From assembly GCA_950295325.1 (NCBI GenBank), contig OX485803.1, positions 45,957,554-46,021,553 of the forward strand: a stretch of 64,000 bases of DNA, given 5' to 3'. Of this stretch, positions 15,701-41,640 are shown piece by piece; the stretch's first letter is position 1; each line of letters opens with the position of its first letter. The notes under the pieces are model-generated. The model worked only from the letters and a program-made list of their open reading frames with translations, was not told where the DNA came from and searched no databases. Source of the DNA: Polytrichum commune (Eukaryota; Streptophyta; Polytrichopsida; Polytrichales; Polytrichaceae). A program made the position numbers and the translations under genes.

Positions 15701-16424
15701 GTCCGACCCACTATTTTTTTTTTGCGGCTAAGTCCTTTTTTTTGGCAGCCTCCATGGCTCTAAAAATCTCAGGCCCACGACTGTATCCTTGTGTGTTGCC
15801 TGGACATGAATATGTGTCGTTCTTGCATGTTTCAGGACGCGCTCCCGAATTGTAAGAGGTGGTATTATAAGTAGAATGCGAGGGTGTTTGCGAAAGGGAA
15901 CGTCTTGCGCTTCTCCGGAGGGCCAGACAACGATCGGACTCGGAAGATGCGGCCCTGAGGGCGTGCCTATCCAAGGAGGACGTGGAGGAGGGCCGGGCAC
16001 CAAGCGAGCGGGTAGCCACCTGCGAAACAACGTCATAGGAAGATAAAAATAGGAATGGAGTGGGGAAAATAATGAGGGCGGTTTGGGATGGGCGCTCGTA
16101 AAGAGAACGGCACGCAAACGGAAGACAAGGGAAGCAAAAGTGGGAAAGGGGTTTAGGGTTGAGGAGGGCACCTTGGCTTTGGGGACGTCCATGCGGGGAA
16201 CGGTGGGAACGAGGGGGGCGTCGACGGGAGCATCCGGAGCCGATGGAACTATTGCACTGTTGGATGGCGGGGGGGAGTCGAGGCGTGGAGGGCCCACGAT
16301 GGCGGAGGACGTTGCGGGGGGAGGAACGGAGTCGGCGGGGGAGGTGTGGCAACGGGGGCCTTCCATGCGGAGACGCCGGCTCGGCCCGCGACGAGTGACG
16401 CCGTCGTCCTTAGAGGGCGAGAGG
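15701..16424. other. GC-rich segment, overlapping long frames on both strands
   Basis: This GC-rich block ends exactly at the LTR start at 16,425. The plus strand reads an E/R-rich, coiled-coil-like stretch near 15,890-16,040 (RQRSDSEDAALRACLSKEDV). The minus strand keeps frames of 213 and 309 codons open. The longest minus frame runs across the LTR boundary, which argues against it being a real gene. A captured host exon is possible, but I cannot choose a strand. Confidence 0.35.
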
Positions 16425-21780: not shown

Positions 21781-23013
21781 GAAAGATAATTTGGTGCACT
21801 AAGTATAAATATTATGCTTAGGATTAAATTACAGGGCAGAATAACACTTTATATTTTAATTGTTAACTAAGGTACGCTTACTACCAAACTAGTTACAAAG
21901 AAGGAGGCAAGGTCGACGCTCGGAAAGTGGAGCAAGGAAGGAGGTAGCGGTTCGGCCTACATCAAGCCCAAATCAACCGAGGAAAATTGAGGTAAATTAA
22001 CTAACCTTAAGCCTTCCATTTAGGATTGGAGGGAGCACGGCTAAGGTACGCATCTCTAAACCCACTCACCTATCTCGTAAGGTCAAGTGGCTCGACCACT
22101 TGACCGCCAAGGGAGTACCCAATTCCATTATTTTCGGGGCCCTTGGTATGTTTTGTGGTAGTAGCTTCATTTATTAGCAAGTTTCGTGTGTGGTAAGTCG
22201 GATTAATCACCGACACGACCACTCTGAATGTTGTTGGTGGAAAGGTGGGGTTAATGACCCGCGAATCCACTATTATGTTGTTGGCCCCATAGATTGGGAG
22301 TAATGGCCCCAATTTATGAAGATTGCGCAACAGGTTGAACCTACAGGTCGCCCGTCACCCTGGTCCCATTGAGTTGCATTTCGTGGTCTATCCAGTGTAA
22401 ACACATTTAACAATCAAAACATACAAAATAAATCGTAAACGCTTGTTGGCAAGAGACCCGAGGTAAGGGGTGATGCCTAATATGTTAATGTAGTAAGTTA
22501 GGACGTGCAAACAAAAGTAAGTAATTAAGAAGGAATTTGTGTGAAGGGTGGGACTTAGGCCAAATTCCCCCGCTTAGAAAACTAAATAGAACTAAATAAA
22601 GAAATAGGAAGAATTGAATGGTCCATCAAATTGTCGTTATTCCGTTCGTTGAGTTAGGGTGGTATGAGTCACACCCGGTTGGGTGTATCAGAACCATCCC
22701 AATTCACAAATTAGGATTGCCTTGGTTTCAAGGCTGGTGCGTCTGCGCGTAGAATAGGTTGTAGGTTAAGGTTAGAACTAGATATGAAATTGGTTAGTGG
22801 AGTTTAAAGCCACACTAGTAAAAAACTAAGGCCTAACCTCCGGAGGTACTACGACGCATATTTAATCTCCCTTAAAAATCTAACTACTCACGTTATACAC
22901 CTATCATCCGGGTTCGGCTTGGGCGCCTGCAAATGCAGGCCACCTTCACCGAAGGGCTTGTGTGATACTTTTAGGCTCCCTCGAAAGGGGGTGGCCCAAA
23001 AGTACCACATAAT

Positions 23014-23030
23014 TGGTGCGTCTGCTGGGA
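23014..23030 (+). promoter_or_regulatory. Probable gypsy primer-binding site
   Basis: TGGTGCGTCTGCTGGGA resembles the TGGCGCC(G)...GGGGA class of primer sites in plant Tat/Athila-like gypsy elements. It sits just downstream of a CA terminus and about 120 bp upstream of the gag start. I cannot name the tRNA. Confidence 0.5.
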
Positions 23031-23147
23031 GGGTGGATGCCCCTGCCATGCTCGAATGATATTTCTTTGAGTACTTATACGTTTAGACTAAGAGAAGAAG
23101 AGTTTAGTCCAATAGAAATTAGTCATACGTCATGGGCCACTTGTGCT

Positions 23148-25856
23148 ATGGTTAGTACTAGGGGACGATCGTACGACACCCCAACAACAACAACCGCATT
23201 TGCATCGGAGGCAACACCAGGTAAGAGGTCGAAGAACGAACCACCAAAACCCGGAAAGACTAAGGAAAATAAATATCAAGGTCTAGGTCCAGAGTCCGAG
23301 CGCGAGAGGGAGAAATCCCCCACCCCACAAAGTCCGGTTAGGGTGGCACGACCCCAACTCATGGCGAATCCTTTGGATGCAATGATGGCTCCTAGAGGGC
23401 CTCCCATTGTAATGCCACAAGCATTAGCGCCAAGGGCGATGCCGAGTTATTTTCCGAAGTTCGGTGGCCTCCCGCATGAGGATCCTTCAACCCACATTGA
23501 ACGATATATTGAGGTAATGTTGGCCAACGTGATAGCCGAAGACACGTATAAACTCGTTTGGTTTTCTACTACGCTAGAGGGTATAGCGTATGAGTGGTAC
23601 CGATCCCACGATGAGGGGACATTTAGGGACTGGCGAGCATTGCAGACGGCATTCCTTAGACAATTTAGACCGGAAATGGGCCAACAAAGCGCACTCGTGG
23701 CGTTAACGAACATGCGGCAAGGCCCATCCGAGGGTATTACATCATACATCCGACGGTTCGAGACGGTGGTAACTCGTTATGTAGGAACCCTTCTCACAAA
23801 TGACACGATTAAATTCTACTTCATACAAGGGTTCAACAAACAAGGTACAATCCGAGAAATTCTTAACTCCAACCCTCAGGATTTGGAAGAAGCTAAAGCC
23901 GAGGCTAGGAGGATCGAAGGTGTAGACAAACAAAATGAGCGGATGTGGAATTGCACTATTGCACCTGTGCCAGCCTTCCTACCCACAACCTACATTCCTC
24001 CCGAGCAGAGTAAGCCTCCTCAGCTGGAGCCATCCCGACCGGATGCATACGCAGTCCACCGAGCGGCCCCGGTTCCTTTGGCTACGAGGCCACCCCCTGA
24101 GCTCTTAGCACTCCCTAGCCCTCCGAGCCACACCACGATCGAGGAGCTAGAACTTAGAGTTAAGAAGGCCAACGACGAGTTGAGGAGCGATGTCATGCAG
24201 TCGCTCAAGACCCTCACAGAGCAGCTAACAATGGCAATCACGTCTAGGCCCTTAGCACAACCAGTTCCGCCGGCCTCGGAGGCGGGTAATTATGGCACCA
24301 ACATTTGGTGTCGTAATTGCAACAAACCTGGCCACAGTAATCAATTTTGCACGGAGCCTAGGTTCACAGGTAACCTAGTAGCCCCACCCCCCCGTCCACA
24401 ACAAGGCCACTCCCAGACTCAAGCCCGGAACAACGGTAAAGGAGTTTGTCCCACTTGCGGCAAGGTTCACATTTTGGGGCCAGGTAAGTGTTGGATCGAG
24501 ACGGGGGTGGTCTGCAACCATTGTGGGGGTAATCACCCGGTCGATAATTGTCGTAGGATTCTCGCGGAGCGACCCTCCCATTACTCTCAGCTGAATCAAC
24601 AACTTCCGGCATTCTTCTATGATAGGAATCAACAGAACCAAGGAGGAATGTCGGTTAATTATCACCAAGGTAACCCACAAAGCAATGGCCAACAAAACTA
24701 CGGTCCACCCAACCACCAAAACCAAGGTAATAGGGGGAACAACTATCAAGGTCCACAAAATTTGTACCCTCAAAACCCCCCAGCCGGTGGTAGGCAAGCC
24801 GACTCGAACTTGGTAGGAATGGTAAGCCAACAGTATGTCCCTCAGATGGGCCGGAACCAACCAAATAGGTTCAACAATGGACCCCAAGTTGCACAACAAG
24901 GTAATACCTTCAATAACTCCCCTAATGAAGGCAACCCATTCTATGGGTACCAAATGAACCAAGGTCAGGCTTATGGTCTTAACGGTCAGTATATCGACAA
25001 CCCTCCTCAACATCTTATGGGGAGTGGACAGGATACTAACCAACAATGGGCGCAAAACATGAATGGGCCTCCAACATCCCAAGGTCCCCTTAACCTTGGT
25101 CATGCACAAACCCAAGACGCGAGGTTCATTGATAACAATAGGGCGAGCACAAGTTGTTCAGCTCCATTCCTTCCTATCCCAAATGATAGTCATAGCAACT
25201 TCATCTCTCACGAGCTAGCCGATTCTTCTTTACGGGCTATCCTGGTTCCCCCTAAAAAACTAAAGCAGAAAATAGACGTGGCAGTGGTCACTAGGGCTCA
25301 GAAGAGGGCACAAACCGTGATGGGTGAAGGTTCCGAGAAGTCGAATGAGTCTGAAAAGTCACCAAAATTCGCAGAACTTCCAGAGTTCTTGCAGAACGCA
25401 GCCCTTAAGGCTAAGGTTCCCACAACTTCCCTAGAGCCTAACCCTGATGACGAACCGGTAGAGGAACCATTACTGGAGGAAGAGGAAGACCTCTTCCGAT
25501 TTGTGGATAGACGAGACACATGGGGCAATGGCCTGCCCGCTAACTTCCCACCGAAACCCCGGCCTAGTCGCGCCTTTAACCCGGCCGAGGACTACGACCT
25601 TTGGTCAGACCTTTCTAGCCTACGAGCCAACATTTCTTTGGCACAACTAATTCAAGTAGCTCCCGCCTTAAGAAAGGAATTCAAGGAAGGAGCCACCCAG
25701 GTTAGGAAGGCTAAAATCCCAACGATGGCAGTTGAGGTCCGAAGAACCCCCCTAGGGGACGAAGGACCAATCGAGGTGGAGGTTGAGATTATGGACAAAA
25801 TAATTCTGAAATGTGGCCCAGAATGCTACCTCAATTCATACACTCCAGAATTCTGA
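23148..25856 (+). CDS. gag: Gypsy retrotransposon Gag, truncated into satellite DNA
   Basis: This is an open frame of about 902 codons. The frame is open from 23,013, but the ATG at 23,148 gives MVSTRGRSY, the usual gypsy Gag opening. Counting from that start, residues about 100-260 form the retrotransposon Gag core (HIERYIEVMLANVIAEDTYK, AYEWYRSH, FRDWRALQTAFLRQFRP). A CCHC zinc knuckle follows (CRNCNKPGHSNQFC), then CPTCGKVHILGPGKC and a CNHCGGNHPVDNC knuckle-like motif with one residue fewer between the second C and H. Next is a long N/Q/G/P-rich, prion-like segment, then an acidic linker and a DLWSDLSSLRANISLAQLIQ block that precedes protease in this class. The last 15 or so residues (KCGPECYLNSYTPEF) are satellite sequence, so the pol part is missing. 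Gag would package element RNA. No nonsense mutation is present in the body, so the copy looks young. Confidence 0.9.
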   Translation: MVSTRGRSYDTPTTTTAFASEATPGKRSKNEPPKPGKTKENKYQGLGPESEREREKSPTPQSPVRVARPQLMANPLDAMMAPRGPPIVMPQALAPRAMPSYFPKFGGLPHEDPSTHIERYIEVMLANVIAEDTYKLVWFSTTLEGIAYEWYRSHDEGTFRDWRALQTAFLRQFRPEMGQQSALVALTNMRQGPSEGITSYIRRFETVVTRYVGTLLTNDTIKFYFIQGFNKQGTIREILNSNPQDLEEAKAEARRIEGVDKQNERMWNCTIAPVPAFLPTTYIPPEQSKPPQLEPSRPDAYAVHRAAPVPLATRPPPELLALPSPPSHTTIEELELRVKKANDELRSDVMQSLKTLTEQLTMAITSRPLAQPVPPASEAGNYGTNIWCRNCNKPGHSNQFCTEPRFTGNLVAPPPRPQQGHSQTQARNNGKGVCPTCGKVHILGPGKCWIETGVVCNHCGGNHPVDNCRRILAERPSHYSQLNQQLPAFFYDRNQQNQGGMSVNYHQGNPQSNGQQNYGPPNHQNQGNRGNNYQGPQNLYPQNPPAGGRQADSNLVGMVSQQYVPQMGRNQPNRFNNGPQVAQQGNTFNNSPNEGNPFYGYQMNQGQAYGLNGQYIDNPPQHLMGSGQDTNQQWAQNMNGPPTSQGPLNLGHAQTQDARFIDNNRASTSCSAPFLPIPNDSHSNFISHELADSSLRAILVPPKKLKQKIDVAVVTRAQKRAQTVMGEGSEKSNESEKSPKFAELPEFLQNAALKAKVPTTSLEPNPDDEPVEEPLLEEEEDLFRFVDRRDTWGNGLPANFPPKPRPSRAFNPAEDYDLWSDLSSLRANISLAQLIQVAPALRKEFKEGATQVRKAKIPTMAVEVRRTPLGDEGPIEVEVEIMDKIILKCGPECYLNSYTPEF

Positions 25857-28400
25857 AATGTGGCCTAGAATGCTACCTCAATTCATACACTTTAGAATTC
25901 TGAAATGTGGCCTAGAATGCTACCTCAATTCATACACTCCAGAATTCTAAAATGTGGCCTAGAATGCTACCTCACTTCATACACTTTAGAATTCTGAAAT
26001 GTGGCCTAGAATGCTACCTCAATTCATACACTCCATAATTCTAAAATGTGGCCTAGAATGCTACCTCACTTCATACACTCCAGAATTCTAAAATGTGGTC
26101 TAGAATGCTACCTCACTTCATACACTTTAGAATTCTGAAATGTGGCCTAGAATGCTACCTCAATTCATACACTCCAGAATTCTAAAATGTGGCCTAGAAT
26201 GCTACCTCAATTCATACACTCCAGAATTCTAAAATGTGGCCTAGAATGCTACCTCACTTCATACACTCCAGAATTCTGAAATGTGGCCTAGAATGCTACC
26301 TCACTTCATACACTTTAGAATTCTAAAATGTGGCCTAGAATGCTACCTCAATTCATACACTCCAGAATTCTAAAATGTGGCCTAGAATGCTACCTCACTT
26401 CATACACTCCCGAATTCTAAAATGTGGCCTAGAATGCTACCTCACTTCATACACTTTAGAATTCTGAAATGTGGCCTAGAATGCTACTCATTTCATACAT
26501 TCCAAAATTCTGAAATGTGGCCTAGAATGCTACCTCAATTCATACACTCCAGAATTCTAAAATGTGGCCTAGAATGCTACCTCACTTCATACACTCCCGA
26601 ATTCTAAAATGTGGCCTAGAATGCTACCTCACTTCATACACTTTAGAATTCTGAAATGTGGCCTAGAATGCTACCTCAATTCATACACTCCAGAATTCTA
26701 AAATGTGGCCTAGAATGCTACTCATTTCATACATTCCAGAATTCTGAAATGTGGCCTAGAATGCTACCTCAATTCATACACTCCAGAATTCTAAAATGTG
26801 GCCTAGAATGCTACCTCATTTCATACACTCCAGAATTCTGAAATGTGGCCTAGAATGCTACCTCACTTCATACACTTTAGAATTATGAAATGTGGCCTAG
26901 AATGCTACCTCACTTCATACACTGTAGAATTCTGAAATGTGGCCTAGAATGCTACCTCACTTCATACACTCCAGAATTCTAAAATGTGGCCTAGAATGCT
27001 ACCTCACTTCATACACTCCCGAATTCTAAAATGTGGCCTAGAATGCTACCTCACTTCATACACTGTAGAATTCTGAAATGTGGCCTAGAATGCTACCTCA
27101 CTTCATACACTCCAGAATTCTAAAATGTGGCCTAGAATGCTACCTCATTTCATACACTCCAGAATTCTGAAATGTGGCCTAGAATGCTACCTCACTTCAT
27201 ACACTTTAGAATTATGAAATGTGGCCTAGAATGCTACCTCACTTCATACACTTTAGAATTCTGAAATGTGGCCTAGAATGCTACCTCAATTTATACACTC
27301 CAGAATTCTAAAATGTGGCCTAGAATGCTACCTCAGTTAATACACTCCAGAATTCTAAAATCTGGCCTAGAATGCTACCTCACTTCATACACTCCAGAAT
27401 TCTAAAATGTGGCCTAGAATGCTACCTCAATTCATACACTCCAGAATTCTAAAATGTGGCCTAGAATGCTACCTCATTTCATACACTCCAGAATTCTAAA
27501 ATGTGGCCTAGAATGCTACCTCAATTCATACACTCCAGAATTCTGAAATGTGGCCTAGAATGCTACCTCAATTCATACACTTTAGAATTCTGAAATGTGG
27601 CCTAGAATGCTACCTCAATTCATACACTTTAGAATTCTAAAATCTGGCCTAGAATGCTACCTCACTTCATACACTCCAGAATTCTAAAATCTGGCCTAGA
27701 ATGCTACCTCACTTCATACACTCCAGAATTCTGAAATGTGGCCTAGAATGCTAGCTCACTTCATACACTCCAGAATTCTAAAATGTGGCCTAGAATGCTA
27801 CCTCACTTCATACACTTTAGAATTCTGAAATGTGGCCTAGAATGCTACCTCAATTCATACACTCCATAATTCTAAAATCTGGCCTAGAATGCTACCTCAC
27901 TTCATACACTCCAGAATTCTAAAATGTGGCCTAGAATGCTACCTGACTTCATACACTTTAGAATTCTGAAATGTGGCCTAGAATGCTACCTCAATTCATA
28001 CACTCCAGAATTCTAAAATCTGGCCTAGAATGCTACCTCACTTCATACACTTTAGAATTCTGAAATGTGGCCTAGAATGCTACCTCAATTCATACACTCC
28101 AGAATTCTAAAATGTGGCCTAGAATGCTACCTCACTTCATACAGTCCAGAATTCTAAAATGTGGCCTAGAATGCTACCTCACTTCATACACTTTAGAATG
28201 CTGAAATGTGGCCTAGAATGCTACCTCAATTCATACACTCCAGAATTCTAAAATGTGGCCTAGAATGCTACCTCACTTCATACACTCCAGAATTCTGAAA
28301 TGTGGCCTAGAATGCTACCTCACTTCATACACTCCAGAATTCTAAAATGTGGCCTAGAATGCTACCTCACTTCATACACTCTAGAATTCTGAAATCTGGC
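25803..28400. repeat. 47-bp satellite array, about 55 units
   Basis: The unit contains GAATTCTGAAATGTGGCCTA then GAATGCTACCTCAATTCATA and ends CACTCCA, 47 bp in all. Nearly every unit carries an EcoRI-type GAATTC. Common variants are TCTAAAATG for TCTGAAATG, CACTTC for CAATTC, and CTTTAG for CTCCAG. A 46-bp unit (GCTACTCATTTCATACATTC) occurs at about 26,483 and 26,717. The left edge is abrupt and in frame with the gag tail. The right edge (28,401-28,560) fades into degenerate partial units (AATCTGAAATGTGGCAATGA, ATTTGGCCGAGAG). Confidence 0.96.
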
Positions 28401-29300
28401 CAAGTGAGTAGCATTTACACAAGGATTCAAGCAATCTGAAATGTGGCAATGAGATAAACCCACACAAAAAGATTCTAAAATTCAGAGATTTGGCCGAGAG
28501 ACACACCTGAACTCAAGAATGCAACCTTTGTCAAATGTGGCCGAGAGAGGCCAAACCAAAACTTCCATTTGTTATATAGCATTTGGGATAGGAAGTCGTC
28601 CAATGTGAAAAGGGTGCACGTGGAGGCAAACATCATGGGCTAAATATTTGATTGGATTCCAATAAAGTAATGGGGTGAATCTTGCCTTGAGTGGGGGATG
28701 CGATCTTCAAAAGTATGACTATAATGCCACATGCAACATCTGGTGCAATGACCACAACCTTTGTGCTAATACTTAACACAAAAATCAAACCATTCAAACC
28801 ATGCAAAGTCACTCACAACCTTAGGTACTCTCAAGTACAACTAAAGTAAGCAACCTCCAAAGTATATTCAACCCGTCCACCCAAACCTTTAAAGAGAAAT
28901 CAAATTTGTGGTTACGGCTCTTGGGTCGTGTGTGAAGTAGCCCTTAAATGCACTTAAGTGTTCTTAAATAATTTAGTCCAAAGTGATACATTGCCCCAAG
29001 TAGCTAGGGTACTCCATACAAGTATTCTAAACATAACATATCAATCAAAGTTGAGGACGTGGTTCACACATATAGTCTCTCGGAACCGACAAAGTAGTTG
29101 AACCTATCAACCAACTAGTTGAACATATGTACAAAATTAAAACAATCCTTCAAACTTCAAGAGCAATTGAAAATAAACAACATAAAATGAAGAAGGAGTT
29201 GAATGTGGTTTGCAAAAGGCACAAGGAAATTCAACAAATGAACTTATAAAAAACTCAAATATAGACAATATAAAGGAGGTTCCAAATGCAAGAGGCGCAG
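28401..29300. other. Spacer between satellite and the methyltransferase-like gene
   Basis: The first 160 bp contain decaying satellite-like pieces. Beyond that the sequence is AT-rich with no recognised gene, LTR or terminal inverted repeat. If the 29.3-40.9 kb genes belong to a transposon, one terminus should lie in or near here, but I could not find it. Confidence 0.45.
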
Positions 29301-29578
29301 TCAAGAACTCGGACTACCATGTCTATCACTATCCTCACCATGCTCGGCCTCTATGTCTAGAAAATCCAAAACTAGTTTGTTGAAAGGTCTGATGGGACTA
29401 GGAGGTGGAGATGGAGCTTCCGCTAACAGATTGGCAAGCTCAGCAGCATACGAAGGGAGCTCGAATGTCTTGGAAGGACTGGAACACATGCCTCGACGAA
29501 GGTCGGCGTTCTCCACTTGCACTCTGAACCCCAAAGACAAAAAATTAGAAACGAAATGACACAGGAAGATGGAAAAAC
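29301..29578 (-). CDS. Possible additional 3' exon of the methyltransferase-like gene
   Basis: The minus strand has a good acceptor (pyrimidine-rich, GGGGTTCAG) near 29,527. After it, an open frame runs VQVENADLRRGMCSSPSKTF ... AELANLLAEAPSPPPSPIRP to a stop at 29,301. It looks like an acidic, proline-rich tail. The upstream exon reaches its own stop at 29,617-29,619 first, and no strong GT donor in the right phase is visible before that stop. Either this exon is used by an alternative or mutated donor, or it is fortuitous. Confidence 0.3.
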
Positions 29579-29616
29579 GACATGAACGTAAAAATGTGAA
29601 AACATATGAAGCAAAC

Positions 29617-30601
29617 TTAGGCACAAAGAAAGCCGAACGCGCGTTTGGTCATCTTTTGAGGCGGATCAAAAATAGAGGTAGACGGTGGGGCAACAGAGCG
29701 AGATGTACGAGCAAGCTGGGGATCGCGCATGGGGACCAGAAGTGCATTGAAAATGATGGGGTCACTCTCTAGTGCCACAATATGCCGCTCAAGGGAGCGA
29801 CAAGCTACAATCGATCCACCTAAAGCAAAGAAAGGTAAAATGTTAGTATGGAAGGTAGTGAAGCAAAAATAACGGAAAATTCAAAGTAAAGGTGATGCCG
29901 AAAAAGAAGGCGTACCTACACCACACTGCCAGTCCATAACAACATCATTCTTGTCGGTGAGAGTAGCGACAAGGATAGAGAAGAAAACATGATGTTTTTC
30001 TCGAGCACCTCTCCAAGGTATCCCATCAGAGCGCATCGCCTGGCTCTTCTCATCGGTGAAGGCATTTAACCATCCATCTCGCTGGAGGTTGTAACCATAC
30101 TCTTGAACGGCCTCCTCCCGCATTTTGAGAACGGAGTTAACTCGAACAAGAACCTTGATGCTGAATTTCCGAGTCTGAAAAAAATCAAACAAATTTCATT
30201 AAACTCGGAAGAAATGAAATGAAACATAAATACACAATCGTATGAAGAGACATAGAGTTGCTTACCACTCCAGAGGGGACCACAGGGGATTGGAGGTCCA
30301 AATCATTCATACCAAACCAATCCTCTGCGACGTAGAAATCATAAGTGTGTGCCCAATCAAAAATAATCTTAAAAACAGAGGAGCTTGCACAATGGGCAAG
30401 GACGAGGACACCATGATCATAGAGGTTAGATTTCGCAAATGCAAATAGACACTCATAGTATGATTCATGGAGCTTGTTCCAAGTAGGAACATCAGTGGAG
30501 ATATTTGGCACAGGCAAATTCTCTGGAATGTCAGCAAAGAGCAGATCGAGGCCCTTGTGAGTTGTAGTCGAGGTGTTCACACAGGAACGACCTGCCCCAA
30601 C
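29617..30601 (-). other. DNA methyltransferase-like domain (exons 8-10)
   Basis: Exon 8 has LDLLFADIPENLPVPN, at the place of catalytic motif IV ([D/N/S]-P-P-[Y/F/W]), but it reads D-I-P-E. GVLVLAHCASSSVFKIIFDW follows, a strand-helix typical of motifs V-VI. Exon 9 has REKHHVFFSILVATL, comparable to the K-P-x-x-[LF] region (motif X). It then reads VVMDWQCGVG, running into exon 10 as GSIVACRSLERHIVALESDP: this is the SAM-binding motif I (D-x-x-x-G-x-G-[GS]) with the acidic motif II (E-S-D-P). The order IV then X-I-II defines the beta class. SAM binding looks plausible. Catalysis is doubtful because of the changed motif IV. Confidence 0.7.
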
Positions 30602-33578
30602 CTACAATAAAAAGTTCATGAGAAAAACAGAACAAAGGAAAAATAAAAAAAATCAAAAGGAAAGAAACCAAACAAATGACGAAGGGAAAGATACAAACCT
30701 TGGCTATAAACTCCTGTATGCGGGTATAAGCTGGGAGGGGACCTCCTGCAAGCTCCGAATCGAGCATGAGTTGCACCATGTCCACATTTTCGATGAGGGT
30801 AAGCGTGGTAGGCGACTCCGAAGAGGTGGCACTCGTATCCAAGAGGGCGGCCTTCCTCTTGCGAGGCAAGGAGAGAAAAGAAGTGCCACTGTGAGAAGGA
30901 GCAGCAATAGTTTGTGGACGAAACGCCGAGGGAGTACCAGAGGGGGCAGCCGATGGAAGAACGGAGGGAGTGATGGAAGGACTCCGTAGTACGGTGGGTG
31001 GCTGAACAGGGGTCTTTGAAGCAGACCGAGTGACAACTTGGGAAGATGCCTGAGTGGCGGTATTCTTTCCTCTCTCCTTTCCCTTTGGTGCCTTAGGTGG
31101 AGGAGGAGGAAACTCAACGATGTCGGGCTCCTCAAAGGGAACAATGTTCTCATCGGGAGTACTACTCACTAGGCTGGCAAAAAGAGGCTTCTCCTCCCCA
31201 GGCACAAATCCTCCAGAACAGTCCAAGTACCATCCCCCAGCCTGCAAGTGAGAATGAGGAAACCTGTTTGTCTGCGTAGTCGTGTACACGCAAAGACTAG
31301 AATGGACGTTCACCCAATCCGAGAGGTAGGTGGGCAAGGAAGATGATGCTAAGGCATTCTTAGCAACCAACTCTCTCATGATATACCTACAAAATCCAAA
31401 AATATTTGACAATGAGAAAGAGCATGATATGGAGTGAAAGAATGTAAAAATTAAAGAGCGAAAATGGGGAATAAGTGCATTACCGATAGGCGACACGCTT
31501 GATAGCGAGAACACTCTCCTCGAATTCTAAGAGGTTATCACCTTTGGCAAAGGGAATGTCAGGATTAACGCCGAGGTAAGGCTTGAAGGCTCTGTCCCAA
31601 AGGAGAATCCTCCAGTGATCAACATATTCACGAGGGCGTAAGATAGTCTCTGATGCGTCCCAATCGATATCGATGGTGAGGTCGTCCTGAAATGAATCAA
31701 TCTGGACCGCGACTTCTTTCTCCAACTGAAATGAGGGTGAGAAAGAATGAAATTAGATATGAACCAAGAGGAAAGAAAAAAAAATCAAGAAGCCAATGAA
31801 TGGATATACCTGAGCCCAGAATGACGCCTTGTGAAGCCAGTCGTCTAAGGCCTTCTCTCTCATAGGCTTGTCAACAGGGAACTTGTTCTCCGACCTCTCA
31901 CGAATTGAGGCGTTCCACCAATGAAGCCACTTGGCTTTGAATGCAGCTTCAACCGGACAAGTGACAATTTTTTACAACTTTTCAATTGTCATATCGGTCG
32001 AGGCAAACTCGTTAAAATGCCTGTCGATCTGCGCACGTCCAAATAAAAGAAATAAGTTCAAGAATGCACATAAATAAATGGGTTATTCATATGAAGGAAA
32101 CCATGAAGAAATCCATGAAGAAGAGATACCTCGTGAAAAAATTCCTCCCCATTCTCAGGGTGTGCGACTGAGATGTACTTTTCAAACGTGCGTGCTCGAA
32201 TGCTCTTGATCGTCTTCTCTTGGGCCTTGGTCATGACATTCCAAATCTCTGTAGCAGTTCTCCCGGCAACCGGAGTGGTTTCACGGTAATGCCTCACCGC
32301 AAGGTCAGCTTGAGCCGAAATCTCTCTCTGCGAAAATTGACATTGTCAGCAAATACAATCGGTATGAAATGTAAAATGAAATGCAGCCCGGGAAATAGAG
32401 AAGGCATACCTTGTAAAAGAATTTGACGAAAACATCCGCGGTGAGAGTGTACCAAGTAGGACGACTCTCCTTAATCTTTTCGCATGCTTTGTAGTCAGCA
32501 GGAGATATGAGATCCTTGAACGTCGATAATTCCAACCTCCCAAACGTACGAATTTGAAGGAGCTTGGCAAGAATGTTCGCCTTCACATAATCATGCTCGG
32601 TAGACCTAAGAGGAAAAAAGAATATGAGAATCGACCAATGAAATGAACGGATGAAATTAACAGAAAGAAAACTATGCTTACCAATTAATGTCGCTCATTG
32701 CGTTGAGGAAGACACCAGTGCATCCCCTAGGGTCGACCACAATACAATCCACCGACACATGCCAACTCTTGTCGTCAGCGTGGTTGTTATTGATGTGCCT
32801 CCACCATGCTGTAAGTCGATGGTTTCCTTCCCACACGAAGAACATCTTGCCACAGAAATGTGCAAGATCCGGATCCTCCTTCAGCTTAACATCGAAATCC
32901 GCGGAAGCCCCTTGCCAGAGAGGACTCCAGGAGGCCATAATGGCAGGGGAAACCGGGAGGTCTACCGGAATGTCATTGAAAACCGAAACGTACATTACCC
33001 GATCTCCCTCTCGGTATCCCATAACAAACTCACATTCCAAACGCTGGACCTCCACCTCGCTGATTGGACGGACAAGTGGAAGGGCTCGCAAGCGGCACAA
33101 AGGAATGGAGAAGCGGGACTTACTAGTGGGCTTAATACGGAGGCGTTGAATAACGCCGTTGGAGTCCTCCTTTTGTGATTTGCGGAGCTCAAGCTCACAC
33201 ACAATAGGATCCGTGTCGGCAACAGCAACGATGTTATCATGGCCAATAGACATCACCTCTCCCTGCATTTGGCCTTGCGAATTAGCACTCTCAACCTGGG
33301 CGGCCTCAACCTCGACCGCGGGGGCAGCAATGACAACGTCTTCTGCAGATTGATGTTGCTCCTCCGCAACTTCAAAAGATTGAGAATCCTAAGAAAATAA
33401 AACCATATGAGACCTTCCCAACGAACAATCAAATAACCAATATCCCAAATAGCTATCAAAATTATCAAAATCCCAGTAGCTATCAAAAAAATAACTCCCA
33501 AATTAGTTTGAACACAAAGTAATACTGTTATCTATTAGGAGGAAAAAGTGCACCAACCACATTCAAAGCCGCCATCAT
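29617..33578 (-). CDS. ParB-like / DNA amino-methyltransferase-like fusion gene, ten exons
   Basis: Exons on the minus strand: 33578-33558 (tentative start, MMAALNV), 33388-32682, 32605-32410, 32327-32130, 32028-31810, 31725-31484, 31386-30699, 30601-30266, 30174-29916, 29819-29617. Every intron is GT-AG. From exon 2 to exon 10 all eight junctions keep frame (two at phase 2, one at phase 1, the rest phase 0), giving about 1,022 residues. Residues about 110-250 form a ParB/sulfiredoxin-like domain with GNHRL. Residues about 510-740 are a P/S/T-rich linker with basic patches. Residues about 758-1,000 resemble a beta-class DNA N6-adenine/N4-cytosine methyltransferase (motif IV region before motif I). 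Exon 5 has one in-frame TAA (31,974-31,972). Otherwise the frame is clean, so the gene was recently functional or the stop is a polymorphism or error. Eight frame-keeping introns rule out simple bacterial contamination. Confidence 0.82.
32410..33388 (-). other. ParB/sulfiredoxin-like domain (exons 2-3)
   Basis: Exon 2 encodes, in order: LPLVRPISEVEVQRLECEF, comparable to the ParB box that opens I-x-P; FFVWEGNHRLTAWW, comparable to the conserved G-(N/E)-(H/R)-R phosphate-binding motif; and WHVSVDCIVVDP, comparable to the following beta strand. Exon 3 continues FLNAMSDINWSTEHDYVKAN, comparable to the A-x-x-E-N-x-x-R region before the DNA-binding helices. In bacteria and phages this fold binds palindromic centromere sites with CTP, or acts as a nuclease or kinase. 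Here only the fold-level resemblance is claimed; the GNHRL motif is at residues 195-199 of the predicted protein. Confidence 0.65.
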
Positions 33579-33748: not shown

Positions 33749-33772
33749 AGAGGCCTCGGATCCGAGGCCTCT
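33749..33772. repeat. 24-bp perfect palindrome, copy 1
   Basis: Half-site AGAGGCCTCGGA followed by its exact reverse complement. It is embedded in a repeated context (CCACAAAAAAAG before, CTGC then TGGCTTCAA after). Confidence 0.95.
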
Positions 33773-34012
33773 GCATCCCTGGCTTCAAATGCCGAAATGA
33801 CCTACTTATGAACTTAACAAAACTTGAAAGGCCTAAAGCAAACTGATGAGGCATAACAACCTGATTTCTTAATGGCACCTACTTCTGATGTTAAGCAAAC
33901 AAGATATGCCTAAAGCAAACTTATGTGGCAACACCTTCTGATGTCTCAAGCGCCTGACACTCTGAACTTAAGCTAAACATGATTTGACAAGCACCTCCTC
34001 AGCCACAAAAAA

Positions 34013-34036
34013 AGAGGCCTCGGATCCGAGGCCTCT
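34013..34036. repeat. 24-bp perfect palindrome, copy 2
   Basis: Identical to copy 1 over all 24 bases and set in a similar surrounding repeat, 264 bp away. Confidence 0.95.
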
Positions 34037-34850
34037 GCGTCCTTGGCTTCAACTTCTGAACTCAACAAAACTTCTAATGTCATAATGGCCTATTACTGAA
34101 CTTAACAAAACTTGAAATGCCTAAAGTAGATTGATGGGGCATAACAACATGATTTTCCAGGCACCTACTTCTGATGTTAAGCAAACAAGAAATGCCGAGA
34201 GCAAACTGATGAGGCTTAACCTCCTAGTTTCTTTATGGCCTACTTCTGAAGATTAACATTACTTGAAATGCCTGAAGCAAACTGATGAGGCATAAACCTT
34301 TGATGTCTAAATGGCCTACTTCTGAACTTAACAAAACTTGAAATCCTAGAAGTAAAGTGATGAGGCATAAACTTCTGCTGTCTTAATGGCCTACTTCTGA
34401 TGTTAAGCAAACAAGAAATGCCGAGAGCAAACTGATGAGGCTTATCCTCCTGCTTTCTAAATGGCCTACTTCTGAACTTAACAAAACTTGATATGCCTAA
34501 AGTAAACTGATGAGGCATAACAACCTGACTGTTCAGGCACCTACTTCTGATGTTAAGCAAACAAGAAATGCCGAGAGCAAACTGATGAGGCTTAACCTCC
34601 TAGTTTCTTAATGGCCTACTTCTGAACTTAACAAAACTTGAAAGGCCTAAAGCAAACTGATGAGGCATAACAACCTGATTTCTTAATGGCACCTACTTCT
34701 GATGTTAAGCAAACAAGATATGCCTAAAGCAAACTTATGTGGCAACACCTTCTGATGTCTCAAGCGCCTACTTTTGAACTTAACATTTCTTGAAATACCG
34801 TGAGCAAACTCGAAACCCTACATCTCACATACTCTATGCCATGAGCAACC

Positions 34851-35300
34851 CAAGTGAACATTTCATTTAGTCTGAGATAGCAAGAACCTCACCACACTCA
34901 AAACCCTACCTCCCACATAGTCACTAAACCCAAATCAAGACAAGGCCATGAGCAACCCAAGTCCACATTCCATGTGCTTTGAAAATCAAGAACCTCACCT
35001 CACTCCAAACCCTACCTCTCACATTCTCACTCAACCCAAATCATGGCAAGGCCGACAGCAACCCATGTCCACCTTCCATGTACTTTGAAAATCAAGAACC
35101 TCACCTCACTCCAAAGCCTACCTCTCACATTCTCACTCAACCCATTTCAAGCCAAGGCCGAGAGCAACCCATGTCCACCTTCCATGTACTTTGAAATTCA
35201 AGAACCTCCCCTCACTCAAATCGCTACTCCTCACATTCTCAGTAAACCCAAATTCAATTTGATATTCGATGTACTTTGAGAAATCAAGGTAATACAAAGG
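34851..35300. repeat. 106-bp minisatellite, four to five units
   Basis: The anchor CAAGAACCTC occurs at 34,881, 34,987, 35,093 and 35,199, exactly 106 bp apart. Each is followed by CACTC-type sequence, TCTCACATTCTCACT-type sequence, an AAGGCC(A/G)A(G/C)AGCAACCCA block and CCACCTTCCATGTACTTTGA. Confidence 0.92.
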
Positions 35301-35415: not shown

Positions 35416-35439
35416 GGAGGCCTCGGATCCGAGGCCTCC
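35416..35439. repeat. 24-bp perfect palindrome, copy 3
   Basis: The same 22-bp core as copies 1 and 2 with outer bases G/C (half-site GGAGGCCTCGGA). The flanking sequence is different, so the core is conserved outside a shared repeat unit. Confidence 0.95.
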
Positions 35440-35467: not shown

Positions 35468-36518
35468 CTAAACCAACATAGCATTCCCGAGAGCCCGACA
35501 GCTTACCAGGATTTGGAGTATGCCATCCACTGAAGCCCCAATATCCGCGCCGCTATCTTCCGAGCTCCCGTCCTCTGTCGGCGTTATTTGAGTGCTCCTC
35601 ATGTCACCGAGGTTGACCTGCGCTTTTCCTCTCCCGTGGCGACGCCCTCGCTTCGATGTCTCTTGTGTTCCGCCCACCTTGCTTCGCAACAATCTTGAAG
35701 CAGGGGTCACAATATCCATATTTAGGGTTTCAGTCCCTGGGCCTCCTCCTTCAGCTCTTTCGCGGCCTCCCAGTAAATTGGATTTCAGATCTTCCTCAGC
35801 CGCTTTCCTCTTCGACACCTTCATTTTTTCTCTTCTCTGAATCGTTGGCTGTCCCGACAGCGGTCCTGTCTCTTCTAACGCCTTTTCAGTTTGTTGTGCT
35901 ACCTCCACGTTGTCTTCTTCTTCGTAGCTATTTCCACTCTCTCCACTCACCCCTTCCTCCTATATTTTAGACATAACAATGTTTAGGGCAATGATGACAA
36001 ACCATAATATTTAAGATAAAGTTGTTTCACAATTCAATATTTTCCTCCATTTTAATTGTGTGCTCAGACAACTGAATATATGGAGCACCCGAATAATACG
36101 TACAACACTTGTAGAGTTCGTCTCCTTGCGTGAGTCCTCTTGGATGTTGTCATTTCCCAACTCTTCCACTTCTGCCATTGTCTGTGCTTTACTTCCGTCC
36201 GCCTTCTCTACAATCGGTGATAAAAGGAAAGGCCGTATCTCACAGTCTAGCCTCCACGAAGATTTAGGATGCCTTAAATCCTTGGGCGTTCCACGGTCCT
36301 TGATTGGCGCATTCGTTGACTGTGTCTTTTGTATCCTCACTGTCTTCCTCTTCTTGTCTGTGTAATGTATAGACGATCGCCTCCTCTTCTTCTTCTTTGA
36401 TGGTTCCGCTGTCGGAGGTTGTGAATTGCCTATTTCCTTCATGTGTTCAGGCCTCCAGCAATTTAGACCCAATCGCTATATTTCCTTTCCACAACCTCAC
36501 CACATCAAACTCGCACAT
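35468..36518 (-). pseudogene. Lysine-rich nuclear-type protein exons, divergent from the transposase
   Basis: The minus strand begins at an ATG (36,518) with MCEFDVVRLWKGNIAIGSKL. A one-base shift near 36,450 then leads into MKEIGNSQPPTAEPSKKKKR (ATG near 36,443), rich in nuclear-localisation-type basic runs. A GTACGT donor near 36,110 and an acceptor (ATATAG, near 35,960) join this in phase 0 to EEGVSGESGNSYEEEDNVEV and a mixed acidic/basic region ending GASVDGILQIL. At that point (35,517) a good GTAAGC donor occurs in phase 0. Spliced to the phase-0 acceptor at 33,389 it would become the 5' part of the ParB-like gene, with both minisatellites as intron. Unspliced, it stops at 35,468. I cannot decide which. 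Confidence 0.5.
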
Positions 36519-36641
36519 TGGAAAGTGAGTGAGCTTGCATTCTTCTCAATTTATAATTCATGTTTAGGGTTTTCATCTTTCTGACAGTCGTTCCGTTTTT
36601 TCCATTTTTGGCATCATTAATCTGTTCACTATATATCTCTA
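36519..36641. promoter_or_regulatory. Short head-to-head (bidirectional) promoter region
   Basis: Only 123 bp separate the minus-strand ATG at 36,518 from the plus-strand ATG at 36,642. The interval contains TATATA (about 36,630-36,636) and AATTTATAAT (about 36,548). If both starts are right, the two genes share a compact divergent promoter, as paired genes in a transposon often do. Confidence 0.45.
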
Positions 36642-39600
36642 TGGCTTCCTCGTCTTCTGTGCCTTGTTTGTCAGAGATGGCGGAGCTCCGTGCCAATGGC
36701 TTTGGAGTGCCCATCCTCTTTCCTATAGATGCAGACGGATTTGCACATGTCTCTTCCCTCCACCTTAGCATCAGGTTCTCCTTGCAGGATGGTTCAATCT
36801 GGGTCGAACGCGAAATTTATGATCCCCTTACCTCTTTGTTGTCCTTGACCATGCGTGAGAATCGCATTCTTGCCGACAACGGATCATTTGTGTGGAAACT
36901 TCCCGCAGGTAATTACAGAGTCTACGGACTCCCTGAATCTCGGCCACACGTTTCCACCGAGATCCGTACCCCTCCTTATTCTTCCGCTTCCACGTTCAAC
37001 ACCCCTCCCGCCGTTCGTGTGAAGATTGAACCTGGTATTCATACTGTCATACATCTTTCTGATTCATCTGATAGTGATGAGCCCGTTCATTCCACTCCTA
37101 ATATCGTGCCATCTTCATCCTCCTTCAGTCCCCCCTCCTTGTCCCCCCCCCTGTGCACCTTGATCCTATGTGTCATCTTCCCCCATCCCCTACCAAACAC
37201 ACCCCTTCCATTCTTCAATGTCTTCGTTCTCTTGCTTCCATGCCCGGTAAGAAAAACATCCTTAAGAAGCTAGATTATGACACCTTGCGAACTAAAGAGG
37301 TGAATTATCTCCCCCCTCGATTTGATGGTGATCTTATGTTTGTCCTTCCCCCAGTCGGTGTCTCTTCCTCTCATAAGAAGGCCCAATCTATGGACGGCAT
37401 GGACAAACGCTATGACGGCCATGTTTGGACTAAGACCCAGACCACCAATATCACCAATGACATGGACCTTGCTTTTCGCTCCTCCATTTGCGTTGGCCAC
37501 CTCCAGTGCCAAAATCCTCAATGCGATTCCTACAACGTGCTCATCGGACTTCCCCGGTCAATGATACTGATTTCGACGGATTCACCAAGGAGCCATTCCC
37601 CGTTGGTGGACCCTTGCCTTTGGGATCCACTCTAGTGTGCCGGATATGTAAGAACCCTCCCAAATGCATTGCACCATGTCCTGCCAAAATCTTCTACGTC
37701 CACGGCAAAGGCACCACTCAGCGTGCCTGTATTCATCTAGGCAACCATCATCATCCCGTCAAGGTTGGCAACTGCAGAGATAGCCGCAAACGCATCGACG
37801 CCCTGATCGAGGAGCACGTCGAGCGAACGCCCCAAGCCACTCATAGCAAAATCGTCCTCGAAGCCAGCAAGGACCTTGTGGGTGAGTTCCTCCTCCGCAA
37901 TGATAGTGATCCTCATCACATTCTCTCCTTGGAAGAACTTGAACCAGTTTTTGATCGTTGCAAGGAGTTGAATTACCCCCACCTCCGTAACAAGGTTACC
38001 AATTTCAAATACTTACGTAGGTTAGGGGTTATGGATGGAATTGCCAAGCTTCGAGGTGTCAGCAACTAGGCCTATGTCCAGCGTAATCAATTCCCGGGCC
38101 AGGGTGATGATACGGACAAAGTTTTCGTTTTCAAGATGTTCGAAGTCGGCCCTGGTAGTGGGGTCGACTTGGTTAAGCGCATGCAACCTGGTGGGGATCT
38201 CGAGCATGCTTGGATGATGTCTGACCATGTCAAACGCGTCTCCAAGTGGACCACCATGGCCTGCCACGTATACGACGGTACCTACCAGCGCGTCATGACC
38301 ATCGCTTGCTGCGACTTCCAATCCGAAGACAAGGATGCTCAAGTTCTTTTTTGGCATAACCTCAACCACGTCATGGCCCGCCATGGATTCCCCAAGCCCC
38401 ACTTCAAAGGCTTCATGGCCGACAGTGCCCAAGCCAATTGGAATGCCGTGAGGATTGTTTACGGGTCCGGAGACCCAAAGGTTCCCATCGATAGGCGTGA
38501 GAGAACGTGCTACTTCCATTGGACCCAGTCTTTGGAGAAACACACCAAGCTATATATCAAGCATGACTTGCAAGACCAACACAAGCGTCTCTGCCTGCAG
38601 TATCGCGACGCATCCTCTATGCTCGAGGCGGAAACGAGGTACCTCGCCATCAAGGCCTGGTGGGCTTCGTCTAACTGCACCTCAGATGAGGGGCTCAAAC
38701 ACCTTCAGCTTTGGCTGGCCTTCTGGCACTTTCGTTATCGACAATGGGGTGGCTTCATGAAATTGGTGCGTCTTTATTGTTATTGCTTTTTGTTTTGTGT
38801 TTTATCTTTTTTTTCAAGCTTTTCTTATTTCTTGCACACCCTTTCCATTTCACAGGAGAAAATCATGACCGCCGAGGAATTTGCACAAATGCCCAATTGC
38901 AACCTTGCCGAATCCATTCACAACAAATGGCTCCAAGCGTCCGGCAACAAAGGTGGCGATCTATACGTGGCCACTGTGGATGACTATATTCGAGTTTTCC
39001 TCCAAGTTGTGGCGTACCATCAGTTCCTTAAGGGTGGCATTGGGGGCGATGGCCCTAGCAAAGAAGAACTCAAGCTTCGTGCCGCTCAACGTCGTGCTCA
39101 ACGTACTGGTGACCCCGCTGTCCTGCAGAAGGTTCTTCTCGACATGCCTGGCGGAAAAGAATTTTGTACTCGTAGTCCCCACCTTGAGGGTGCCGAGGTC
39201 TTTGGCTCCCAGAAACGCAAGCCTGACACTCCCATTGGAGCTGACGATGAAACCCACCGCCCCGACACCCTCAACTTCTCTCGCCCTCATGTCGCACAGA
39301 GAACCACAAGATCTCAAACTTCACCTTTGCCTACCATCGTCGAGGAGTCCTCCCCGACATTGCTCGAGGTTCCACCACCCCTTCCCACTGGTCTGGATTT
39401 TCGCCGTGTCACTGCTGTCCAAGAATCTGAAGTGGACGAGAAGCTCTGGCATATTGCTCGTGTTCCTTACAATTCCTCAAAGGCATGTTGGGCCATGCAT
39501 GCTGTCACCAAGAAGAAATGCACTGCCAAAATCGTCTCCAATTCCAAGAGCACCCCTGCACCGGCTTACCTTGGAGTTTGGAACTATTACAAATTCACCA

Positions 39601-40313
39601 CACCTAAATCTAAAAAGTTCTTTTTCTGCCCCGACGACATTGAGCGTTGTGTGAAAGGTTCACGTTGCAAGTGGGTCGACAAATTCTCTGCTGACCAAGA
39701 ACGACCTCCGATTCCTCCCGTGTGGCCTGTCAAGCTTGGTACCAACCTCACTCGTCCAGAGATACTAAAGCTTGAAAATGCCGGATTCCAGCTCCCGCAG
39801 AAAGAACGCATCACGCCAACTCGCCTCTTCAACACTTCAGCTCCTCCCCTTGACCTCTCCGGAATAGATGTTCCTGCCAACCCCGACTCTTATCCTTCTT
39901 CCAGGCAGTCCAAGGCTACGAGACGGTCTGCTACTGCACCGTCAACAAAACAAATGCAGATGGTCGCATCTGCACGAGCTATGGACGGGACCATTTTGAA
40001 GGTTACTATGATTCCACGCCCTGGATTTGGTTGCGTGCTCACGTTGCAATCCAAACCTGCACCTACACAATCTATTTACCAACTGACAGTCAGTTCCTTG
40101 CCCGAGTGTAATTGCCCGGCATTCAAGGATATGATATCAAAGTTTGGCCGGAAACGAAATTCGTTCTTGCACTGCAAACACATGTACTTCATATTTGTTA
40201 AGGTGTCTAATGCAGACCTTGAAGTTGATTTGTTCATACACGCCCCTACCTTTAGCTTCAATGAAGTCAAACTCATCCTAGAAGAAGGCCTCTTGACACA
40301 ATCTACTTCCTAG
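36642..40313 (+). pseudogene. MULE-like transposase with SWIM zinc finger, decayed
   Basis: Starting at MASSSSVPCLSEMAELRANG, the frame has an N-terminal domain and then an S/P-rich linker with HLSDSSDSDEP. The frame shifts in a run of nine C (37,143-37,151) to reach MPGKKNILKKLDYDTLRTKE and the pre-transposase block FRSSICVGHLQCQNPQCDSY. It shifts again near 37,545 into NDTDFDGFTKEPF. An in-frame TAG lies at 38,068-38,070. The transposase core follows (VYDGTYQRVMTIACCDFQSE, then GFMADSAQANWNAVRIVYGS with a catalytic-type D, then RTCYFHWTQSL). A 90-bp GT-AG intron (38,766-38,855) interrupts it before NCNLAESIHNKWLQ. The C-terminus has a SWIM finger (CNC at 40,107, CKH near 40,173), common in MuDR/MULE proteins. 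Two shifts and one stop inactivate it, yet the rest is well kept. Confidence 0.75.
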
Positions 40314-40474: not shown

Positions 40475-40942
40475 CTATTTCCGTTTTGCATAATTCTTCG
40501 ATGATTCCGAGGGAGGTGGACCCGGTCGAAGCAAGTCAATATAAGAAATTGTTTTATCTTTCATTCGATCCTTCAGTGGACGACGATGCGGCGACAATCC
40601 TCTCATCCTTTCGCGAAATGAAAGAGACTTGGAAGATTCGCCTACCACCTTCACCTCCTGCTCCGTTTCGTTCGGTTTGTCTTCATCCAAATCAACGTCC
40701 TTCTCCGGTACATCTGCCTGCCTCTTTTCATTTTTCTCATATTCTTTCTGCTCCCCCTGCATCCTCCACCTCCATGCTTGTATAGACTGCGAAAATGGAG
40801 TCACCTCGTAGTCATCACTACTTCGATTTCCAGCAACAAACTCAAATTCCGGCGATGGATTAAAGAAAATATGAGGATCTCCTAGACTTCTAATTTCCTT
40901 CTCCCATCCTAGTCCAGCAAACATGTCTCTCTCATCTCCCAT
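40475..40942 (-). CDS. Hypothetical acidic/basic 155-residue protein
   Basis: An ATG at 40,942 opens MGDERDMFAGLGWEKEIRSL, with NPSPEFEFVAGNRSSDDYEV, a hydrophilic middle (QKEYEKNEKRQADVPEKDVD) and a basic C-terminal third (SLSFRERMRGLSPHRRPLKD). I do not recognise a family. The frame is open to its stop and faces the transposase gene tail to tail, about 160 bp apart. It could be an accessory gene of the same element or a first exon whose partners I did not find. The hydrophilic composition and coherent N-terminus make it more credible than the surrounding random frames. Confidence 0.45.
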   Translation of the reverse strand: MGDERDMFAGLGWEKEIRSLGDPHIFFNPSPEFEFVAGNRSSDDYEVTPFSQSIQAWRWRMQGEQKEYEKNEKRQADVPEKDVDLDEDKPNETEQEVKVVGESSKSLSFRERMRGLSPHRRPLKDRMKDKTISYIDLLRPGPPPSESSKNYAKRK

Positions 40943-40963
40943 TGTGTGCAAGTGTATATACAA

Positions 40964-41384: not shown

Positions 41385-41640
41385 CTACGCTCTCCGCTCT
41401 CCAAATCTCCGCTCTACGCTCACATAGGAGTGTCGTCCAGTGAGCACGTGAATCATGCCTTCCGATAGATTGAAGGTAACCTCAAACAGATTGATAGCTT
41501 TGAATGAAAGAAGTGCAAGGGATGGGTGTAGGGTTTCCCAGGCCCTAGCTGTAAGAGCTTTGAGCCCGGGGTGCTTACCTTGAATCCTTCTAAGGATGGT
41601 TAAAAGTCCGCTTTGGCAGTGCATGTTGATCGCAGGGATG
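41385..41640 (-). pseudogene. Possible LINE ORF1-type fragment
   Basis: The minus strand reads GKHPGLKALTARAWETLHPS then LALLSFKAINLFEVTF and an E-G-x-x-x-x-L-x-x segment. This resembles the nucleic-acid-binding N-terminal region (DUF4283-like) of some plant LINE ORF1 proteins. It is short, ends abruptly, and lies next to another LINE fragment of opposite orientation. Family assignment is tentative. Confidence 0.35.

Follow-up and report, generated by a model that had tools for sequence, protein, structure and literature searches.

The window analysed in this work (64,000 nucleotides of the Polytrichum commune genome, contig C1:45957554-46021553) contains two genes arranged head to head: a minus-strand gene of 11 exons, further called the accessory gene, and a plus-strand transposase gene. 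A preliminary description of the window had presented the former as a single plant gene fusing a ParB-like domain to a DNA methyltransferase-like domain. Comparison with the rest of the genome (408 Mb, with seven large contigs of 42-78 Mb) revealed that it is multi-copy and constitutes the second gene of a large DNA transposon with terminal inverted repeats (TIRs), present in at least hundreds of copies. The seven large contigs, together with SBP genes (16 matches here, in none of 14 control genomes), which mark green plants, agree with a green plant of n=7. Five copies were compared, i.e., A1 (the window), A2, B1, B2, and C1, together with lineage D, a second, deeply diverged lineage (e.g., locus L090). 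The main features of the window copy are listed below.

29301-33578, minus strand: accessory gene, 11 exons (splice model and recurrence in copies)
33578-33558, 33388-32682, 32605-32410, 32327-32130, 32028-31810, 31725-31484, minus strand: accessory exons 1-6
31386-30699, 30601-30266, 30174-29916, 29819-29639, 29523-29301, minus strand: accessory exons 7-11
32682-33388, minus strand: exon 2, conserved N-terminal domain with the motif [WC][ED]GNHR..AW, "ParB-like" by eye only
29639-30601, minus strand: exons 8-10, permuted amino-methyltransferase domain (motif IV ADIPENL, X-like PWRGAREK, motif I DWQCGVGGS)
33749-33772: perfect palindrome AGAGGCCTCGGATCCGAGGCCTCT
34013-34036: perfect palindrome, second copy
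35416-35439: perfect palindrome GGAGGCCTCGGATCCGAGGCCTCC, third copy
33796-35253: tandem arrays with 75- and 106-bp units, between the two divergent genes
36641-40313, plus strand: transposase gene, two exons, intron near 38766-38856, head to head with the accessory gene
41407-41438, minus strand: outer element end, GGACGACACTCCTATGTGAGCGTAGAGCGGAG read inward
25802-28401: 47-bp satellite, 55 copies, 3' part of the element; the same satellite occurs in A2

The accessory gene and its transposon

The accessory gene model comprises 1089 codons. Its nine exons from 33388-32682 to 29819-29639 are joined, as originally proposed, by GT-AG introns of 76-101 nt at compatible phases, and the peptides FFVWEGNHRL (about 32842-32813) and MDWQCGVGGS...ALESDP (exons 9 and 10) are present as described. 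Exons 2-10 recur in the four other copies with 50-99% identity (exons 2-11 in A2, B1, and B2; exons 2-10 in copy C1), and it is therefore the protein, not only the DNA, that is conserved. As the intron phases at exons 8, 9, and 10 are also the same in A and D, at about 37% identity, the exon structure is not a product of chance. Some matches are partial: exon 2 aligns cleanly only from residue 46 in the B copies and from residue 51 in copy C1, exon 10 of copy C1 to residue 46 of 59, and exon 9 of B2 in two pieces. Exon 11 was found in A2 (98.6% identity), B1 and B2 (47.8% in both), and the interrupted D copy on contig C5 (41.5%), and was not found in copy C1. This conservation indicates that the gene probably ends at 29301, so that the exons described previously stand while the proposed gene end at 29617 does not. 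For exon 1 and for the donor preceding exon 11, which is weak, the model draws on the window alone.

The window copy is broken, as its transposase is disrupted and an in-frame TAA (31974-31972, fifth exon), overlooked in the preliminary description, interrupts the spliced frame. Exons 2-11 of A2 are free of stops, whereas exons 7 and 8 of B1 contain stops and exon 9 of copy C1 contains one. The four stops indicated by tblastn in exon 2 of B1 and B2 precede, we take it, residue 46 and lie in a longer, probably non-coding stretch of the B copies. In copy C1 (loci L040 and L041) the accessory gene has large introns, and its comparison with A1 showed synonymous saturation, or nearly so, in exons 2-6 and dS of 0.2-0.6 in exons 7-10; this suggests that the copy is a mosaic, produced by recombination between lineages inside the gene.

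Similarity across the five copies spans the accessory gene, the tandem-repeat interval, and the opposite-strand transposase. The exon 2 search of the whole genome gave 1295 first-look candidates, of which 150 were scored, and at least 200 matches with identity down to 60% among the matches listed; the transposase search gave 1719 candidates, and the searches with lineage-D exon 9 and exon 2 gave 899 and 1231, with 150 scored in each case. Since the unscored candidates may include chance matches, we speak of hundreds of copies, not thousands. A divergent transposase was located within 15 kb at 76 of the 149 exon-2 places (a minimum, among the matches listed, with 150 transposase places), with a median distance of 8.4 kb for head-to-head pairs, while random placement gave a mean of 0.5 and a maximum of 3 such pairs in 200 trials.

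The inward sequences of the element ends are GGACRACAC...TATGTGAGCGTAGAGC and GGGAAACTYA...TGTGAGCG[TG]AGAGC; they start with GGAC (GGAT in one case) and GGGA, respectively, and have TGTGAGCG[TG]AGAGC in common as terminal inverted repeats. The left-end pattern was found in 39 places of the genome and the right-end pattern in 156, with none for the reversed controls. Target site duplications (TSDs) of 10 bp accompany 13 end pairs as follows: eight are exact, four have one mismatch, and one pair, that of the probably nested B2, has none. Where both ends lie close, the element measures 17-18 kb (about 17.5 kb in copy C1 and about 18 kb in L006). In the window, it runs from the 47-bp satellite to 41438, and the second end lies outside. 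The satellite has a CpG observed/expected ratio of 0.03, and a Gypsy-like gag open reading frame (ORF) recognized by eye (23013-25856) reads directly into it at 25802.

The transposase, of about 1200 residues, shows by eye the motifs C..H (D..C..H), N.AESIHNKWL, and a C-terminal, SWIM-like CNC...C.H; the PDB search returned no meaningful chain for it. In the window its frame shifts twice, once between 37102 and 37273 and once between 37461 and 37635, and is interrupted by a stop at 38067-38069; in copy C1 its 5' part is absent. A 766-codon stop-free frame covering the first transposase exon occurs in at least 28 places among the matches listed. The portion of PMC6446971 cited here gives TSDs of 8-11 bp for MULEs, which often encode SWIM fingers and sometimes a second ORF. 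The 10-bp duplication falls within that range, and, because it and the transposase motifs seen by eye fit MULEs, we call this cut-and-paste transposon MULE-like rather than a MULE. Two other affiliations were rejected, in both cases against the relevant part of PMC12730594: the Zisupton (KDZ) superfamily, which has 8-bp TSDs, and Lanisha (CMCT group), with mostly CA..TG ends and TSDs of 2-5 bp, unlike the element described here.

Further minus-strand ORFs flank the transposase, and may be parts of a third gene running across it on the opposite strand:

35468-36475, minus strand: two ORFs (36011-36475 and 35468-35959), basic protein, about 78% identity in B1/B2 and 96-98% in A2
40475-40963, minus strand: conserved ORF, 67.7% identity over 161 columns in copy C1

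Their assignment to the first ORF of a long interspersed nuclear element was rejected, as they recur inside the element in other copies.

The gene pair is conserved over a considerable distance. Over 377 residues, the L090 transposase shares 56% identity with its B counterpart; exon 2 of L090 is 40% identical to that of the window, and the two genes are again head to head. For the accessory gene, the ratio of nonsynonymous to synonymous substitution rates (dN/dS, Nei-Gojobori) takes values of 0.13-0.21 when A1 or A2, B1, and C1 are paired with one another (938-1002 codons), many of the between-lineage dS values being saturated; between A1 and A2, at low divergence, it is 0.35, and for exons 8-9 between A1, B1, and C1 it is 0.07-0.25. 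The low ratios and the retention of the pair in lineage D show the protein to be maintained by longer-term selection within the transposon, and the transposase/methyltransferase-fold pair persists under purifying selection in lineages only about 37% identical. The gene had been proposed to be domesticated or transposon-carried; its ends, TSDs, and copies strongly support the latter, and the former found no support.

Judging by their similarity, class B copies are young: among loci L010-L033 (mostly class B), 84 of the 253 pairs reported by blastn (276 are possible) shared 99% identity or more across 3 kb or more. The most similar pair (99.97% identity), separated by about 106 kb on contig C4, may be a local duplication. 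On contig C5 (23469701-23505343; loci L064, L034, L035, and L065), an A2 element is inserted into a lineage-D copy of the gene, between exon 7 and the end of exon 8. Elsewhere in the window, LTR-like direct-repeat pairs were found at 12704-17392 and 47695-53737 (84% and 87% identical), and a long open frame at 55570-57264, which by eye resembles a host gene of the glyoxal-oxidase type.

A methyltransferase fold with an altered active site

The proposed methyltransferase-like domain was borne out by independent profile tests. The window copy on its own scored below the cut-off against PF01555 (N6_N4_Mtase; E 0.038-0.039) and reached E 0.0047 against DpnA, while a lineage-D copy exceeded the curated cut-off of PF01555 (28.2 vs. 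26.7 bits). In an alignment of eight sequences, PF01555 was matched by seven members at 0.1 or better (9.5e-10 at best), and several phage DNA-methyltransferase families were matched as well; profile matches were also obtained with DpnA (1e-7, motif X-I part) and CcrM (4.9e-5, whole domain). The hhalign comparison with four phage methyltransferase domains, three of which come from proteins beginning with a ParB domain, gave a probability of 96.2% (E 2.2e-9, score 66.4), and 100 column-shuffled decoys scored 26.2 at most. With phage DNA methylases the match extends over no more than part of the domain, and two scans of viral contigs for relatives yielded, respectively, no pattern match and 19 pattern matches with none confirmed.

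The expected motif IV segment is present, but it reads ADIPENL and is not of the DPPY type. Aligned with CcrM, D[IVLQ]PE[GN] occupies the position of DPPYN, and the profile adiPegl lies opposite ADPPYNL. The catalytic (D/N/S)PP(Y/F/W) is absent, with D[IVLQ]PE found in all 19 spliced copies, and D, P, E, and L of the motif are invariant in the eight aligned sequences; the active site thus changed early and was kept from then on. Known enzymes use the aromatic DPPY residue to stack against the flipped base. Motif I, which is FxGxG in SAM (S-adenosyl methionine) binding, is QCGVG in A-C (DWQCGVGG), whereas D sequences have TAATG or STATG (DCTAATGS in four of the five aligned). We therefore describe the C-terminal domain, as judged from its sequence, as a permuted amino-methyltransferase fold with a D-x-P-E tetrapeptide at the catalytic position. 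It aligns with the class-beta adenine methyltransferases CcrM and DpnA over motifs IV to I (6pbd) or X-I (5hfj), and differs from them in the replaced catalytic tyrosine and the altered motif I.

The ParB half of the proposed fusion fared differently. The motif [FY]F[VI][WC][ED]GNHR..AW of exon 2, an exon that is 40-87% identical to the window in eight copies, resembles box II of ParB or sulfiredoxin. The Pfam scan of exon 2 from these copies recovered ParB (PF02195), the match that had been predicted, in none of the eight, and the PDB search of exon 2 gave no ParB support. Against eight phage and bacterial ParB domains, hhalign returned a probability of 0.2%, although each of those domains was recognized at 96-99.5% in leave-one-out controls. 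Omitting a 41-column stretch brings GNHR onto ParB box II in the best alignment, with a score that 21 of 100 decoys also reach. The assignment thus goes back to the motif, a ParB-like fold of exon 2 being possible, and with these negative profile tests a ParB domain fused to an active methylase is unsupported.

Within the whole genome, PF02195 was matched only on the small contigs C12 (L001) and C23 (L002 and L003). These contigs carry phage- or bacterium-like genes, among them a textbook ParB-methylase fusion with DPPYG (L001), and are probably contamination of the plant assembly.

Palindromes and tandem arrays

In A, B, C, and D alike, the interval between the two genes contains tandem arrays, whose units differ, and blastn found no array piece common to copy C1 or D and the other copies. 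Palindromes with a half-length of at least 8 number 16 in A2, 35 in B1, 43 in B2, 39 in copy C1, and 3 in D, compared with 0-4 in three shuffles of each sequence. The first class, (A)GAGGCCTCGGATCCGAGGCCTC(T), has 3 cores in A1, 9 in A2, 27 in B1, and 33 in B2, whereas the second class, CACCCTCTCGGAACCGAGAGGGTG, has 41 in copy C1 (28 in the interval and 13 inside the gene span). The core CTCGG-NN-CCGAG is common to both. Between A and B, the sites are 0.88-1.0 identical, while their flanks (30+30, ungapped) reach only 0.32-0.42. All 30 exon-2 loci L004-L033 contain 2-8 cores each within 3.6-3.7 kb.

In the genome, the first class occurs in 2137 places and the second in 2064, with none for the controls; positions were examined for the first 50 distinct places of each class. 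For the first class, these form six clusters on contig C1, none of them farther than 3 kb from an exon 2 or a lineage-D exon 9 (positions picked from the match listings), and the clusters beside lineage-D exon 9 indicate that this class is also carried by lineage D, on the 3' side of the gene. Of the second-class places, 48 of the 50 fall into two clusters on contig C1, at 16.46 Mb (exon 2 at 16461488) and at 24.59 Mb, the latter inside one of the 13 end pairs, and the two single places lie at 467243 and 9750567. Locus L065 holds the first class, and L088 a third version, TGTCTCGGTCCCGAGACA. The palindromes contain CpG; those of the A/B/D class contain GATC, and those of the C class are devoid of it and have a variable central pair.

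A candidate self-recognition system

The reading we favour, as slightly more probable than not, is that this is a MULE-like element encoding a self-recognition protein, anti-silencing or regulatory, together with its own binding arrays, in the manner of VANC. Long palindromes beside the two presumed promoters, a conserved methyltransferase-fold protein, and the loss of the base-stacking residue suggest a dimeric sequence reader. The protein, as a probable dimer, would recognize the palindromes through the methyltransferase fold and the N-terminal region and coat the interval that is predicted to hold both promoters; such coating would either protect the element from silencing through host cytosine methylation or control its own expression and transposition. 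A re-purposed prokaryotic methyltransferase would then act as a DNA reader and not as an ordinary base-modifying enzyme. According to the part of PMC10398659 considered here, VANC proteins cause the loss of silent marks and bind to noncoding tandem arrays that are specific to the family. VANDAL elements (Arabidopsis MULEs) resemble the present one in having a second gene in a DNA transposon, the long TSD class (8-11 bp for MULEs), and tandem arrays in noncoding DNA whose short motifs differ from family to family. They differ in that here a methyltransferase fold and long perfect palindromes in the arrays are found, and binding is predicted; VANC and the accessory protein have no Pfam match in common and are likened by description, not by sequence. 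A more far-reaching version, tentative and in our view rather less probable, is that a transposon superfamily turned a prokaryotic methyltransferase into a D-x-P-E reader of thousands of element-specific palindromes, with at least two co-diverging outer half-site classes on the core CTCGG-NN-CCGAG. These would serve as a self/non-self tag against silencing, and the VANC strategy would have been invented independently here, with clusters of sites like those of ParB/parS.

Several observations weigh against self-recognition. The transposase matched no Pfam family, and neither MULE nor SWIM at E 5, and its dN/dS between A1 and A2 is 0.93 over 193 codons. Of 548 rare changes among 20 B copies, 279 are of the C>T or G>A type, and the CG, CHG, and CHH contexts are all affected; such an excess is expected of methylated DNA. 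The copies thus look methylated or deaminated, not protected, and are at least often methylated; an escape from methylation is not supported by the base changes. The palindrome arrays are tandem and could be homogenized passively, and the A and B intervals share array pieces (72 bp, 85-88% identity). In the window, the palindrome excess is small (7 with a half-length of at least 8, vs. 1-4 in three shuffles). The L090 interval has arrays with no palindrome core, and among 21 D loci (L064, L065, and L072-L090), many of them too short to reach the 3' flank, only L065 and L088 contain a core. Finally, SAM binding may persist, and the protein could then be an active enzyme with altered chemistry.

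The last point leads to an alternative that we hold to be unlikely, namely an active methyltransferase that marks the element at the palindromes with N6-methyladenine or N4-methylcytosine, thus timing transposition or blocking host 5-methylcytosine. The whole fold is kept, with low dN/dS in exons 8-9, the motif I glycines are partly retained in A-C, and the palindromes offer CpG and, in the A/B/D class, GATC. Against such activity speak the replacement of the DPPY aromatic residue by Glu in every spliced copy, the D-C-T-A-A-T-G of most D sequences, and the C-class palindrome, which has a variable centre and no GATC. Less probable still is that the protein, like MuDR mudrB or proteins of the TnpA type, forms a structural component of the transposition complex and that the palindromes serve it as internal binding sites unrelated to anti-silencing. 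Linkage to the transposase in both the A-C and D lineages and the frequency of an extra ORF in MULEs (in the cited part of PMC6446971) agree with this reading, but the terminal repeats are not where the palindromes occur: these are found between the genes, in introns, or on the 3' side of the gene.

MULEs capture host fragments, as the same source states in its cited part, and the gene could be a captured passenger or belong to a hitch-hiking host gene family; the same pair with the same intron phases at about 37% identity, purifying selection, and the many copies make this very improbable. We give hardly any credence to the original reading, a domesticated host ParB-methylase fusion gene: it could appeal to the GNHR-type motif and to the real fusion with the same domain order on the phage-like contig of the assembly (L001), and it is contradicted by the stop codon in the window copy, the element ends with their TSDs, and the negative ParB profile tests.

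Compared with the phage and bacterial ParB-methylase fusions (L001, the Desulfofustis phage L094, and phage WO L095), the accessory protein likewise has a C-terminal permuted N6/N4 methyltransferase domain behind an N-terminal one, and differs in having no detectable ParB profile, D-x-P-E for DPPY, a long middle region, introns, and the status of transposon cargo. The N4-methylase of Marchantia is also a prokaryotic-type amino-methyltransferase fold in a eukaryote; it and the bdelloid N4CMT are cellular genes, whereas here the fold belongs to a gene of a high-copy transposon, and its active site is non-canonical. For N4CMT, such a fold in a eukaryote is reported in the part of PMC8885841 considered. 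Fungal DNA transposons with TET/JBP genes (KDZ and others, as covered in the cited part of PMC12730594) similarly place a DNA-modification-type gene beside the transposase, and differ in enzyme fold and, for Zisupton, in TSD length. A literature search of titles and abstract beginnings found no DNA transposon with an N6/N4-methyltransferase-type gene and no such plant element; most subscription papers and the Repbase reports were outside its scope, and the family may be catalogued there.

A prokaryotic-type amino-methyltransferase fold has thus spread as cargo of a successful plant DNA transposon, with an active site that is conserved though non-canonical, and candidate binding sites lie ready-made beside its gene. 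With this system it becomes possible to test how, in this plant lineage, transposons may overcome silencing by DNA methylation and, owing to two natural site classes, how protein and palindrome change jointly. Copy C1 is informative in this respect, as its N-terminal exons diverged while the methyltransferase exons stayed close, and its palindrome class differs too.

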